Part shown: piece after piece, positions 1,324 to 9,016 of the stretch
Layout of the letters: each line of letters begins with the position of its first letter
How positions within the stretch are numbered: position 1 is the stretch's first letter
Virus record (IMG/VR): IMGVR_UViG_3300021376_000177
Location: 1-35,166 of that record
Direction: 5' to 3' (one strand)
DNA: 35,166 bases
Source of the DNA: a virus
Program-made: the position numbers and the translations under genes
Notes under the pieces: generated by a model
Seen by the model: only the letters and a program-made list of their open reading frames with translations
Database searches by the model: none
What the model was told of the DNA's origin: nothing

Positions 1324-3282
1324 TTAAGCTGTAATGTTAGTTTCAATTACAGAAATATTAGAGCGTTTATAACTGTCTATTATTTGTCTAGTAGAAGGTT
1401 GAAATAATGTAAACACTATCTTCACATCTTCAGGTATTTGGTCTAATAGATTTTCATTAAAATCTCCAACACCGTTAAATTCACCATCGGTAAATACTAT
1501 AATAATATTTGTATCGCCTATTTCATCTTCATGATTCTTATAGAACTCAACAGCACTACTAAAATTTGTACCACCTGATTGAAAAGGTATATTTTGAAGT
1601 TTATTTGTATCTGCTGGGTCAATGTGAAATTCATCTTCGGTTGAATAAACACCCGATGACCACATTATAATGTTCAGTTCTGAGTCCATTGATACGGAAT
1701 CTATTACATTCAATAACTCATTCATAAACTTGGTATACATACGTTTAGATACCGATCCTGAAGTATCAACCATTGCAGTAACAACTACTTTTTGTTTAAC
1801 TTCTTTTCTACTTCTTAGATAACGACCCATAGCGGTAGATCTATAATCAGGCATTATAGTTGATACATACTCTTTAGCTTTTACAAGAACATCTCTCAAC
1901 TCAACACCCCAATCAACATGCTTTTCGCCGGTAACCTTGAAACCTTTTTCCTTATCTGATTTAAGTATTTTTTCTGACTCTCTTTTTGTTATGTCTTCCT
2001 TTTCCTTAGCTTCACGTTTTTCTTTAGAAGATATTTTTCCTGTACGAGGTTTTATAGGTCCTTCTGTAATATCTTTATCAGGTCTTCTTCTTCCATCTCC
2101 ACCAGGTTTACCACCTTTAACACCATCTCCACCTGGTTCATCACCTTCACCGGGTTCATCACCTTCACCGGGTTCATCACCTTCACCTGGTTTACCACCT
2201 TTACCTGGTTCGCCACCTTTACCTGGTTTACCACCTTTACCTGGTTCATCACCTTCACCGGGTTCATCACCTTTACCGGGGTCACCACCTTTACCGGGGT
2301 CACCACCTTTACCTGGTTCGCCACCTTTACCGGGTTCACCACCTTTACCGGGGTCACCACCTTTACCGGGGTCACCACCTTTACCTGGTTCCTCATCGTC
2401 ACCAAAAGTAACAGTACTACTGTGTATACCGGTTGTAATTGCCTCAATTATATATCGATAAGTTGATTCCGTAACAGGTACATCCCAATCAACATCTAAA
2501 ATTTGATCACCCTTCTCATCCGGTGGTGAAGCTTTAACAACTATGCCAGTGATATTTGTGCTTAAATCTTTTACTTTGTCACCAACTTTATAAACATTTT
2601 TCTTTGGTGGTTTTGGTGGTAATGGCGGTGCGTGGTCCACCATTTCGTGATCATCGTGCGGTTTACCATGTGTTTTTTCTATTTCTTTGATAAAATCTTC
2701 TATTTTCTTACTACGTTTGTTTGATTCTTCTTTTAAAAGAATGTAAATTTCATAGTAAGTGCTATTTGTAACGTCAATAGTAGCGTCATCCACCTTTATA
2801 TAATACTTGCCACCCAATTTTAATGGGGTTACAGCAGGAAATTCTGAACCGTCTTTGAAAATTCTTTTTATATTTAAACCATCTTTATCTAAATCCCTAT
2901 TAATAACGTAATCTGTTGCAAAATTAAACAATGCAAGATGCATACCTCTTGCAACTGCATCACTTACATGTTCTTGAAACACATGATACATTTCATGTGC
3001 TAACACGGCGATGGCACCTTTATCGGTCAACCTATCAAAAAAATCTGGGCTAATATAAAGATTATCAAACTTATCAACACCCATTGTATCTATAGTATTA
3101 TCAAAAATAACTGGTACTTTATTGATAAAAGAGTGAAATAATGGTATCTTTTTACCGAGTTGACGTTTTAAACCTTCTAAACGAAGTCTTTGTTCGAGAG
3201 TAGCGCCCGCACTCTTTTCAGTGCTCTCAGTTAATATGCGTTTATAGGTGTTAAAAATCTTATCACTATCAACATTAGCCAT
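1324..3282 (-). CDS. VWA-domain protein with HExxH metallopeptidase-like N-terminus and collagen-like insert
   Basis: A 652-residue protein with four visible parts. Residues 1-200 carry HEMYH (96-100), the signature of the putative metallopeptidase domain found in front of VWA domains (DUF2201-like). Residues 231-268 look like a small SH3/KOW-like barrel (YKVGDKVKDL and following). Residues 298-394 are a low-complexity insert of Gly-X-Y triplets built from the hexamer PGKGG(D/E/K). Residues 498-652 are a VWA domain with a complete MIDAS: DTSGS (506-510), the Thr of GGTNF, and the Asp of TDGE. VWA proteins of this kind bind substrates for MoxR AAA+ partners, and the next gene downstream encodes one. 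The start at 3282 is supported by a late-type box six bases upstream. The collagen-like insert is the odd part and may be a flexible spacer or trimerising stalk. Confidence 0.85.
   Translation of the reverse strand: MANVDSDKIFNTYKRILTESTEKSAGATLEQRLRLEGLKRQLGKKIPLFHSFINKVPVIFDNTIDTMGVDKFDNLYISPDFFDRLTDKGAIAVLAHEMYHVFQEHVSDAVARGMHLALFNFATDYVINRDLDKDGLNIKRIFKDGSEFPAVTPLKLGGKYYIKVDDATIDVTNSTYYEIYILLKEESNKRSKKIEDFIKEIEKTHGKPHDDHEMVDHAPPLPPKPPKKNVYKVGDKVKDLSTNITGIVVKASPPDEKGDQILDVDWDVPVTESTYRYIIEAITTGIHSSTVTFGDDEEPGKGGDPGKGGDPGKGGEPGKGGEPGKGGDPGKGGDPGKGDEPGEGDEPGKGGKPGKGGEPGKGGKPGEGDEPGEGDEPGEGDEPGGDGVKGGKPGGDGRRRPDKDITEGPIKPRTGKISSKEKREAKEKEDITKRESEKILKSDKEKGFKVTGEKHVDWGVELRDVLVKAKEYVSTIMPDYRSTAMGRYLRSRKEVKQKVVVTAMVDTSGSVSKRMYTKFMNELLNVIDSVSMDSELNIIMWSSGVYSTEDEFHIDPADTNKLQNIPFQSGGTNFSSAVEFYKNHEDEIGDTNIIIVFTDGEFNGVGDFNENLLDQIPEDVKIVFTLFQPSTRQIIDSYKRSNISVIETNITA
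2101..2391 (-). repeat. In-frame degenerate 18-bp repeats encoding collagen-like Gly-X-Y
   Basis: About sixteen imperfect copies of an 18-bp unit encode Pro-Gly-(Lys/Glu)-Gly-(Gly/Asp)-(Asp/Glu/Lys/Pro), so glycine falls at every third residue. The unit varies mainly at third codon positions and at the charged residue. This suggests selection on the protein together with copy-number change by recombination. It is coding and lies inside the VWA gene. Confidence 0.85.
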
Positions 3283-5678: not shown

Positions 5679-5753
5679 TGGTAGCCGCAGAAGGGTTTGA
5701 ACCTCCGACCTTTTCCGTGTAAAGGAACTGCTCTTCCACTGAGCTATGCGGCC
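5679..5753 (-). tRNA. tRNA-Val(TAC)
   Basis: A cloverleaf folds on the minus strand with encoded CCA and discriminator A. The acceptor closes with a G-U at 1-72, the D-stem is GCTC/GAGC, the anticodon loop is TTTACAC and the T-loop TTCAAAC. The anticodon stem has a mismatch at 27-43. It would read GUA. It is the last member of the cluster transcribed from the promoter near 6341. Confidence 0.93.
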
Positions 5754-5760
5754 TAAAAAA

Positions 5761-5837
5761 TGGCGTCCTCGACAGGATTCGAACCTGTGACCCTCTGCTT
5801 AGAAGGCAGATGCTCTATCCAACTGAGCTACGAGGAC
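5761..5837 (-). tRNA. tRNA-Arg(TCT)
   Basis: A complete cloverleaf: acceptor GTCCTCG/CGAGGAC, discriminator G, encoded CCA, anticodon stem TCTGC/GCAGA with loop CTTCTAA, and a normal TTCGAAT T-loop. It reads AGA, a codon favoured in AT-rich genomes. Confidence 0.96.
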
Positions 5838-5840
5838 ATT

Positions 5841-5916
5841 TGGTGGTCTAGATAGGATTTGAACCCACAACCTAACGGTTATATGCCGCTTGCTCTAACC
5901 ATTGAGCTACTAGACC
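5841..5916 (-). tRNA. tRNA-Ile(TAT) with A33
   Basis: Acceptor GGTCTAG/CTAGACC, discriminator A and encoded CCA, with normal D- and T-arms. The anticodon stem is AGCGG/CCGTT and the 7-base loop is CATATAA, which puts TAT at 34-36 and reads AUA. Position 33, nearly always U, is A here. The amino-acid call rests on the loop register, which the paired stem fixes. Confidence 0.85.
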
Positions 5917-5924
5917 AATAAAAT

Positions 5925-6000
5925 TGGAGCAGGTGGTGGATTTGCACCACCGATCTTCACGTTATGAGCGTGACTAGATAGACTTCTTCTCCAACCTGCT
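5925..6000 (-). tRNA. tRNA-Met(CAT), structurally divergent
   Basis: The acceptor AGCAGGT/ACCTGCT pairs perfectly and runs straight into CCA, so either the discriminator is missing or the stem is one pair shorter. The anticodon stem TCACG/CGTGA encloses CTCATAA (anticodon CAT). The T-stem is perfect, but the T-loop is TGCAAAT (G at 55) and the D-loop lacks the GG that normally pairs with the T-loop. It could also be an Ile-type CAT tRNA (lysidine-modified). Confidence 0.8.
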
Positions 6001-6004
6001 ATAA

Positions 6005-6287
6005 TGGTGCCTAAGGCCGGACTCGAACCGGCACGGTATTACTACCAGCAGATTTTCTTACCACTATAGTTTTCACTACCTTTACAGTTCGTGGTCTGGA
6101 CTATACCTTAACCATAATCTCACGATTTTAGGTTCCAACCGTCTAGTCTCTACACCTTCCTATTTAGTAGGCTTGGCTCGGGATTGCCAGCTAAGGTTTC
6201 CCCGAATTTGATTGGTTCTACATCCGAAGTTTCCTTCAGTGCACTCAAAAACTAAGTCTGCTGCGTCTGCCATTTCGCCACTTAGGC
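6005..6287 (-). tRNA. tRNA-Leu(TAA) interrupted by a group I intron
   Basis: The exons are 6254-6287 (34 nt) and 6005-6056 (52 nt); the joined product is 86 nt. Acceptor GCCTAAG/CTTAGGC pairs fully, with discriminator A and encoded CCA. The D-stem is the 3-bp GCG/CGC type with an AAATGGCAGA loop. The anticodon stem GCAGA/TCTGC closes CTTAAAA only after the 197-nt insert is removed, giving anticodon TAA. A long variable arm (GGTA-GTAA-TACC) and a TTCGAGT T-loop are as expected for leucine. It is the first tRNA of the cluster, and it reads UUA, the leucine codon expected to be common in an AT-rich genome. Confidence 0.95.
6057..6253 (-). ncRNA. Compact group I intron (IC3-like) in tRNA-Leu(UAA)
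   Basis: The 197-nt insert lies exactly after U34 and ends in G. The helices can be read directly. P1: exon ACTT with intron GAGT (6243-6246), placing the conserved U-G wobble at the 5' splice site. P2: 6234-6239 with 6224-6229 around a GAAA loop. P3: CCAATC (6210-6215) with GGTTGG (6135-6140). P4: TCGGG (6201-6205) with CCCGA (6178-6182). P6: CCTA/TAGG near 6159-6171. P7: GACTA (6144-6148) with TAGTC (6099-6103). P8 has a GTGA loop. P9: GTAGT/ACTAT around a GAAA loop (6066-6079). The core strings GGTGTAGAGACTAGACGG and ATAGTCCAG match, from memory, the Azoarcus tRNA-Ile intron. P5 is reduced, and there is no room for a homing endonuclease. Confidence 0.92.
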
Positions 6288-8930: not shown

Positions 8931-9016
8931 TGGAGCCTAGGACAGGAATCGAACCTGCAGTTGGCTTTCGCCGCCAGTTTACAAAACTGGTCCCTTACCA
9001 TTCGGGGCACCTAGGC
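8931..9016 (-). tRNA. tRNA with anticodon TGT (Thr) but a long variable arm
   Basis: Acceptor GCCTAGG/CCTAGGC, discriminator T, encoded CCA. The D-stem is CCC/GGG with a GG-containing loop. The anticodon stem CCAGT/ACTGG closes TTTGTAA, so the anticodon is TGT. The variable region is 15 bases with a GGC-GAAA-GCC hairpin, the class II form normally seen in Leu, Ser and Tyr tRNAs. T-arm GCAGG-TTCGATT-CCTGT. The D-arm resembles bacterial tRNA-Tyr. It stands alone, 2.6 kb from the main tRNA cluster. Confidence 0.88.

Follow-up and report, generated by a model that had tools for sequence, protein, structure and literature searches.

A group I intron in the tRNA-Leu(UAA) gene of a phage and its relatives in other phage tRNA genes

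On the minus strand of IMG/VR virus record IMGVR_UViG_3300021376_000177 (35,166 bases, analysed over its whole length and here called the window), positions 6005-6287 form a tRNA-Leu(UAA) gene in which a 197-nt group I intron separates U34 from A35. The gene is found by ARAGORN in intron mode (tRNA-Leu c[6005,6287] (taa) i(35,197)) and missed by the same program run by default, without introns. The original prediction was that a tRNA-Leu would fold only once 197 nt had been removed, and this proved correct: the joined exons fold as a complete 86-nt tRNA-Leu(UAA) with a full acceptor stem and an encoded CCA. By the intron-mode output and this fold, the 5' exon (6254-6287, minus strand) ends in C32-U33-U34 and the 3' exon (6005-6056, minus strand) runs from A35 through the encoded CCA; the intron itself (6057-6253, minus strand) is supported by the Rfam model RF00028, a family model termed R1, and covariation. 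An identical copy of all 283 bases of the interrupted gene is present in another IMG/VR contig, while the end of a third falls within the intron.

The virus is a tailed phage, because the proteins of the window include baseplate wedge subunits, a clamp loader, an ATP-dependent DNA ligase, dUTPase, dCMP deaminase and thymidylate synthase. ARAGORN places a run of tRNA genes for Val, Arg, Ile and Met (named by anticodon) at 5679-6000 on the minus strand, and a tRNA-Thr farther away. Codon counts over 31 reading frames on the minus strand of the window show UUA as the commonest leucine codon (464 of 825, or 56%), and the shares of AGA, AUA and ACA among the codons for arginine, isoleucine and threonine are 56%, 49% and 53%; the tRNA set fits this AT-rich codon use, and the tRNA-Leu(UAA), if its intron splices, would serve the leucine codon that the phage uses most. 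Two other features of the window are recorded here in their own right. The 86-nt tRNA-Thr(UGU) (8931-9016, minus strand) has an extra hairpin, GGC GAAA GCC, in its variable region, an element normally absent from threonine tRNAs; and the frame at 1324-3282 (minus strand) encodes a long protein whose central portion holds many repeats of the PGKGG type and which matches a PHROGs family named HNH endonuclease, a name for which its sequence gives no obvious support.

The helices and loops that had been predicted for the intron were all located (coordinates on the minus strand throughout). As read from the sequence, an internal guide, GAG (6244-6246), pairs with C32-U33-U34 in a short P1 of 3-4 bp, in which U34 opposite the G at 6246 makes the U.G wobble of the 5' splice site; the UUUU beside the guide (6247-6250) could form four base pairs with A35-A38 of the 3' exon, as P10. 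P2 is a hairpin with one bulge and a GAAA loop (6243-6234 with 6229-6219, spanning 6219-6243). P3 pairs CCAAUC with GGUUGG (6215-6210 with 6140-6135, spanning 6135-6215), the two strands that the prediction had named. P4 (6205-6201 with 6182-6178) encloses P5 (6196-6195 with 6188-6187) within 6178-6205, and P6 (6177-6175 with 6156-6154) encloses P6a (6171-6168 with 6162-6159) within 6154-6177. They are followed by the guanosine-binding helix P7 (6148-6144 with 6103-6099, spanning 6099-6148), by P8 with its GUGA loop (6134-6131 with 6113-6110 and 6127-6124 with 6119-6116, spanning 6110-6134), and by P9 (6095-6091 with 6064-6060) with P9a, which has a GAAA loop (6078-6075 with 6070-6067), within 6060-6095. 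The intron ends in ...GGUAAG, its terminal guanosine (omega G) lying at 6057, and a terminal G is also found in the relatives whose junctions are resolved. No open frame of 60 or more amino acids lies within the 197 nt, so that the intron is, as had been proposed, compact and without an endonuclease gene.

A covariance-model match had likewise been expected, and RF00028 (Intron_gpI) recognises the intron at 49.3 bits (E 1.3e-11 in a 501-nt search), 0.7 bits under the gathering score of 50; relatives of the intron exceed that score, at 60.8-70.9 bits. With model R1, which was built from 17 phage tRNA introns including this one, the intron scores 201 bits, compared with 11.6 for the next-best place in the window. 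These 17 introns, from tRNA-Leu and tRNA-Arg genes, were also aligned for covariation: both partners vary in 33 of the 52 core pairs, 93.7% of cells hold standard pairs, and none of 500 shuffles reached any of the five covariation measures. Sliding one partner by 1-3 columns lowers pairing to 26-43% (maximum 42.6%). Having been derived from the window intron, the structure has an advantage over its slid versions, but hardly one as large as that seen. P3 and P7 are paired in 100% of cells, with both-side changes in five of six and three of five pairs respectively, and the GAG guide is kept in all 17 introns. The conserved P3-P8 core with the crossing of P3 and P7 is thus present, and the predicted reading, a small group I intron that lacks an endonuclease and follows U34 of the phage's tRNA-Leu(UAA), is supported. 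The trees group the intron among those of bacterial and cyanobacterial tRNAs. Such bacterial and cyanobacterial introns are classed as IC3 in the literature, and the window intron is a candidate for that subgroup.

The intron is not as unusual in a phage tRNA as had been supposed. Scanning IMG/VR with the core motif returned at least 119 stretches (a count distinct from prevalence, as the motif preselects introns), and in at least 45 of the 119 matches listed the intron lies inside a tRNA. The target sites are tRNA-Leu(UAA) and tRNA-Arg(UCU) after U34, tRNA-Arg after U33, and tRNA-Lys and tRNA-Asn after U35. Two huge phages carry introns of this kind in tRNA-Leu: LR756501 (735 kb), with an intron of 205 nt, and LR756511 (595 kb), with one of 700 nt that holds an HNH frame. 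So do two isolates, Agrobacterium phage Atu_ph07 (tRNA-Leu, 278 nt) and Gordonia phage Daredevil (tRNA-Lys, 238 nt). The records of both isolates have no tRNA feature over the intron-bearing gene, and the two huge-phage records are without annotation. In one 281-kb IMG/VR record (G015, stretch L425), three intron-model matches fall within one phage tRNA cluster, in a tRNA-Arg(UCU), a tRNA-Leu(UAA), and a third tRNA called SeC by ARAGORN that is better read as tRNA-Lys(UUU). Endonuclease-like frames (HNH or LAGLIDADG) occur in five longer introns (L003, L024, L079, L082 and L090), and Pfam backs four of the five. Phage tRNA introns are common enough to be met in dozens of contigs as well as in phages that have been cultured.

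Some candidates were set aside in compiling these cases. For many phage introns ARAGORN gave isotype names (Tyr-AUA, Ser-AGA and, in part, Phe) that were discarded because they arise from a shifted junction, most of these genes being tRNA-Leu(UAA) with the junction displaced by a few bases; BLAST matches in Staphylococcus, crAss-like and other phages were left out of the counts, and the crAss-like matches that were examined lie in protein-gene regions without a tRNA. Several observations made in the same stretches stand apart. Klebsiella phage OU509535 (L396 1420-1721) has an ARAGORN tRNA-Met(CAU) with a 228-nt insert that scores 61.5 bits with the intron model, its junction being a candidate one. 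An uncultured Autographiviridae phage (L004 1446-1626 and 2155-2335) has two strong group I matches (78 and 76.9 bits) among its capsid and tail genes, both absent from the record's annotation. On a cyanophage-like contig, an abiF RNA match (L025 3825-3861; 53.8 bits, cut-off 37) lies directly upstream of the intron-bearing tRNA-Arg. In Daredevil (L395 1327-1341 and 1496-1807) the intron-bearing tRNA-Lys adjoins an integrase gene, and between the two lies a short, uninterrupted copy of a tRNA-Lys-like anticodon stem-loop (CGGACTTTTAATCCG); this copy might resemble an attachment site, and an integrase of that kind would be kept by the intron from recognising the tRNA of the phage itself.

The guide of these introns is matched to the tRNA that they interrupt. 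In Leu and Arg introns after U34 the 5' splice site docks on GAG, and the base before this triplet follows the type of tRNA in 45 of 46 phage introns, being U in 25 of 26 Leu introns and G in all 20 Arg introns; bacterial introns are split in the same way (U in 60 of 63 Leu, G in 4 of 4 Arg). Several of the sequences counted are near-copies and so do not represent independent events. In P10 the base in question would face the first nucleotide of the 3' exon and pair with it. The sole phage exception is the HNH-bearing tRNA-Leu intron of LR756511 (L003 2374-3160), whose G before GAG fits tRNA-Arg and which may be a recent move. In tRNA-Lys and tRNA-Asn introns the guide (GGAG and GCAG) is instead complementary to nucleotides 32-35 of the respective tRNA, and Arg introns after U33 have GGGC or GGGT. 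Phage Leu and Arg introns are mixed in the tree, and a clade of phage Leu introns as against other phage introns is rejected (p 0.02), from which the simplest reading would be that introns moved between tRNAs with the guide changing along.

Empty sites are found in related phages, whose uninterrupted tRNA-Leu genes match the joined exons, as the prediction required. On an IMG/VR cyanophage contig (L124), 84 of the 85 exon bases of the intron-bearing tRNA-Leu agree with the uninterrupted gene of Synechococcus phage S-SCSM1, and the exons of the tRNA-Arg(UCU) of L025 likewise match the intronless tRNA of S-SZBM1, both being exact empty sites. A relative of the window phage is L434, a 230-kb contig that is partly syntenic with it (several genes in common, the tRNA-Arg 88% identical); its tRNA-Leu is intronless and shares 69 of 86 bases with the joined exons of the window, and it also holds an intron in a tRNA-Lys. 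Among phages with related ligase genes, most lack a tRNA-Leu in the stretches examined; L265 (46% ligase identity) carries an uninterrupted tRNA-Leu(UAA), and the intron model found no match in the eleven related-ligase records that were searched whole. We infer that the intron was gained in the lineage of the window phage and not lost in L434.

As to where it came from, bacterial and plastid tRNA-Leu(UAA) genes offer a close known parallel, with the same tRNA, the same U34/A35 site and a similar core, mostly without an endonuclease. The original prediction had pointed to the cyanobacterial and plastid introns on account of this site. The site is indeed the same, but it is also used in many other phyla: among bacterial genomes with the motif, tRNA-Leu(UAA) introns occur in cyanobacteria, alphaproteobacteria, Bacteroidota, Acidobacteriota and others. 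That the phage captured its intron along with a host's tRNA-Leu(UAA) gene of cyanobacterial or plastid type is in our view unlikely, and this explanation appears weakened by the trees, in which the cyanobacterial introns form a single 100/100 clade on a long branch with the intron of the phage outside it. By path, the row nearest to it is instead an intron in tRNA-Arg(UCU) of Desulfogranum marinum (95/89), whereas in identity a phage intron, L102, comes first (81%). The link to cyanobacteria that a phylogeny of the core had been expected to illuminate is nevertheless not formally rejected, as the union of the intron with the cyanobacterial clade has p 0.20; nor is a single phage clade (p 0.32), in a tree of about 200 columns with many weak forks, where the branch leading to the window intron is fairly long (0.21). 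The Desulfogranum intron (L381/L416) adjoins reading frames that resemble ordinary bacterial genes, and it is itself patchy, because only three genomes among 196 searched as Desulfogranum relatives, Desulfogranum included, gave a match. Bacterial tRNA-Arg(UCU) introns (such as those of Desulfogranum marinum and Haematobacter) occupy the same position in the anticodon loop as that of the window, whereas they differ in target tRNA and have G before GAG where the window intron has U.

Taken as a whole, the locus is very probably a phage tRNA-Leu(UAA) gene with a small group I ribozyme of the bacterial tRNA type in its anticodon loop, predicted to splice itself out. In the precursor tRNA the intron would fold around P3-P8, and the 5' splice site, C32-U33-U34, would dock on the GAG guide through the U.G wobble; an external guanosine bound in P7 would cleave after U34, and the terminal G together with the short P10 (UUUU with A35-A38) would serve exon joining, yielding a tRNA that reads UUA. 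The gain would have come about in the phage lineage, most likely through recombination with a phage or bacterial tRNA gene that already held a relative, and within the intron family moves between tRNA-Leu and tRNA-Arg, in either direction, would be accompanied by a change of guide. An Rfam score just short of the gathering threshold is what a dead remnant might give, tolerated in a tRNA pseudogene since host tRNAs can substitute. We regard decay of this sort as highly improbable, however, as the joined exons fold as a whole tRNA with its CCA, all core helices are intact within a strongly covarying family, the U.G pair and the terminal G are retained, and the gene would read the most-used leucine codon. 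A different suggestion is that the intron is kept for its usefulness, for example as a store of precursor tRNA whose interrupted anticodon loop would be proof against the anticodon nucleases of the host, or as a stage-timed delay of UUA decoding. In several phage tRNAs the anticodon loop is interrupted at 33/34, 34/35 or 35/36, the region where anticodon nucleases cut, and three matches share one tRNA cluster in a single phage record, both of which agree with a benefit; yet similar anticodon-loop introns occur in bacterial tRNAs, and a patchy presence among phages with many empty sites is as expected of a neutral mobile element, so that retention for use seems unlikely. A wider proposal, that phages form a standing reservoir of tRNA group I introns (in Leu(UAA), Arg(UCU), Lys and Asn) with guide-switching, exchange between phages and bacteria and, in part, shielding against anticodon nucleases, is put forward tentatively and has a small chance of being right.

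Group I introns of phages have been known from other settings. Hausner et al. (2014; PMC3984707) noted that all phage introns observed by then were in protein genes, despite the many tRNAs of phages, and tied this avoidance of tRNA genes to endonuclease targets; the bacterial and plastid tRNA-Leu(UAA) introns are those of Kuhsel 1990, Paquin 1997 and Rudi 2002, as cited in that paper. The introns of T4, Twort and crAss-like phages are, like the one described here, group I ribozymes on phage genomes, but they lie in protein genes and not in a tRNA gene. Also similar are the introns of LR756501, Atu_ph07, Daredevil and the IMG/VR contigs, which have the same core at the same kind of site and in several cases the same tRNA-Leu, although some longer ones (such as that of L003) carry HNH- or LAGLIDADG-like frames and the window intron has none. 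A 2025 database paper on group I introns assigns over half of the viral ones to subtype IA2 and does not speak of phage tRNAs with introns in its main text; nor did a search of the huge-phage, Atu_ph07 and jumbo-phage papers and of the 2025 Bastillevirinae intron paper yield any intron in a tRNA. Within the open-licence literature, represented mostly by titles and abstracts, we met with no earlier description of a phage tRNA interrupted by a group I intron. The element itself is of a known kind; its phage setting, the breadth of its occurrence and its guide changes appear to be new.

The pattern described in 2014, in which phage introns avoid tRNA genes, does not hold. Interrupted tRNAs of this sort are passed over by default ARAGORN, and some, including that of the window, fall under the Rfam cut-off; unless a search allows for introns, its tally of phage tRNAs will be too low. 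Across phage introns the guide is seen to change with the target tRNA, and in Atu_ph07 and Daredevil there are cultured phages in which any tRNA splicing during infection could be measured. Phage introns are also a testable source for the scattered tRNA introns of bacteria.
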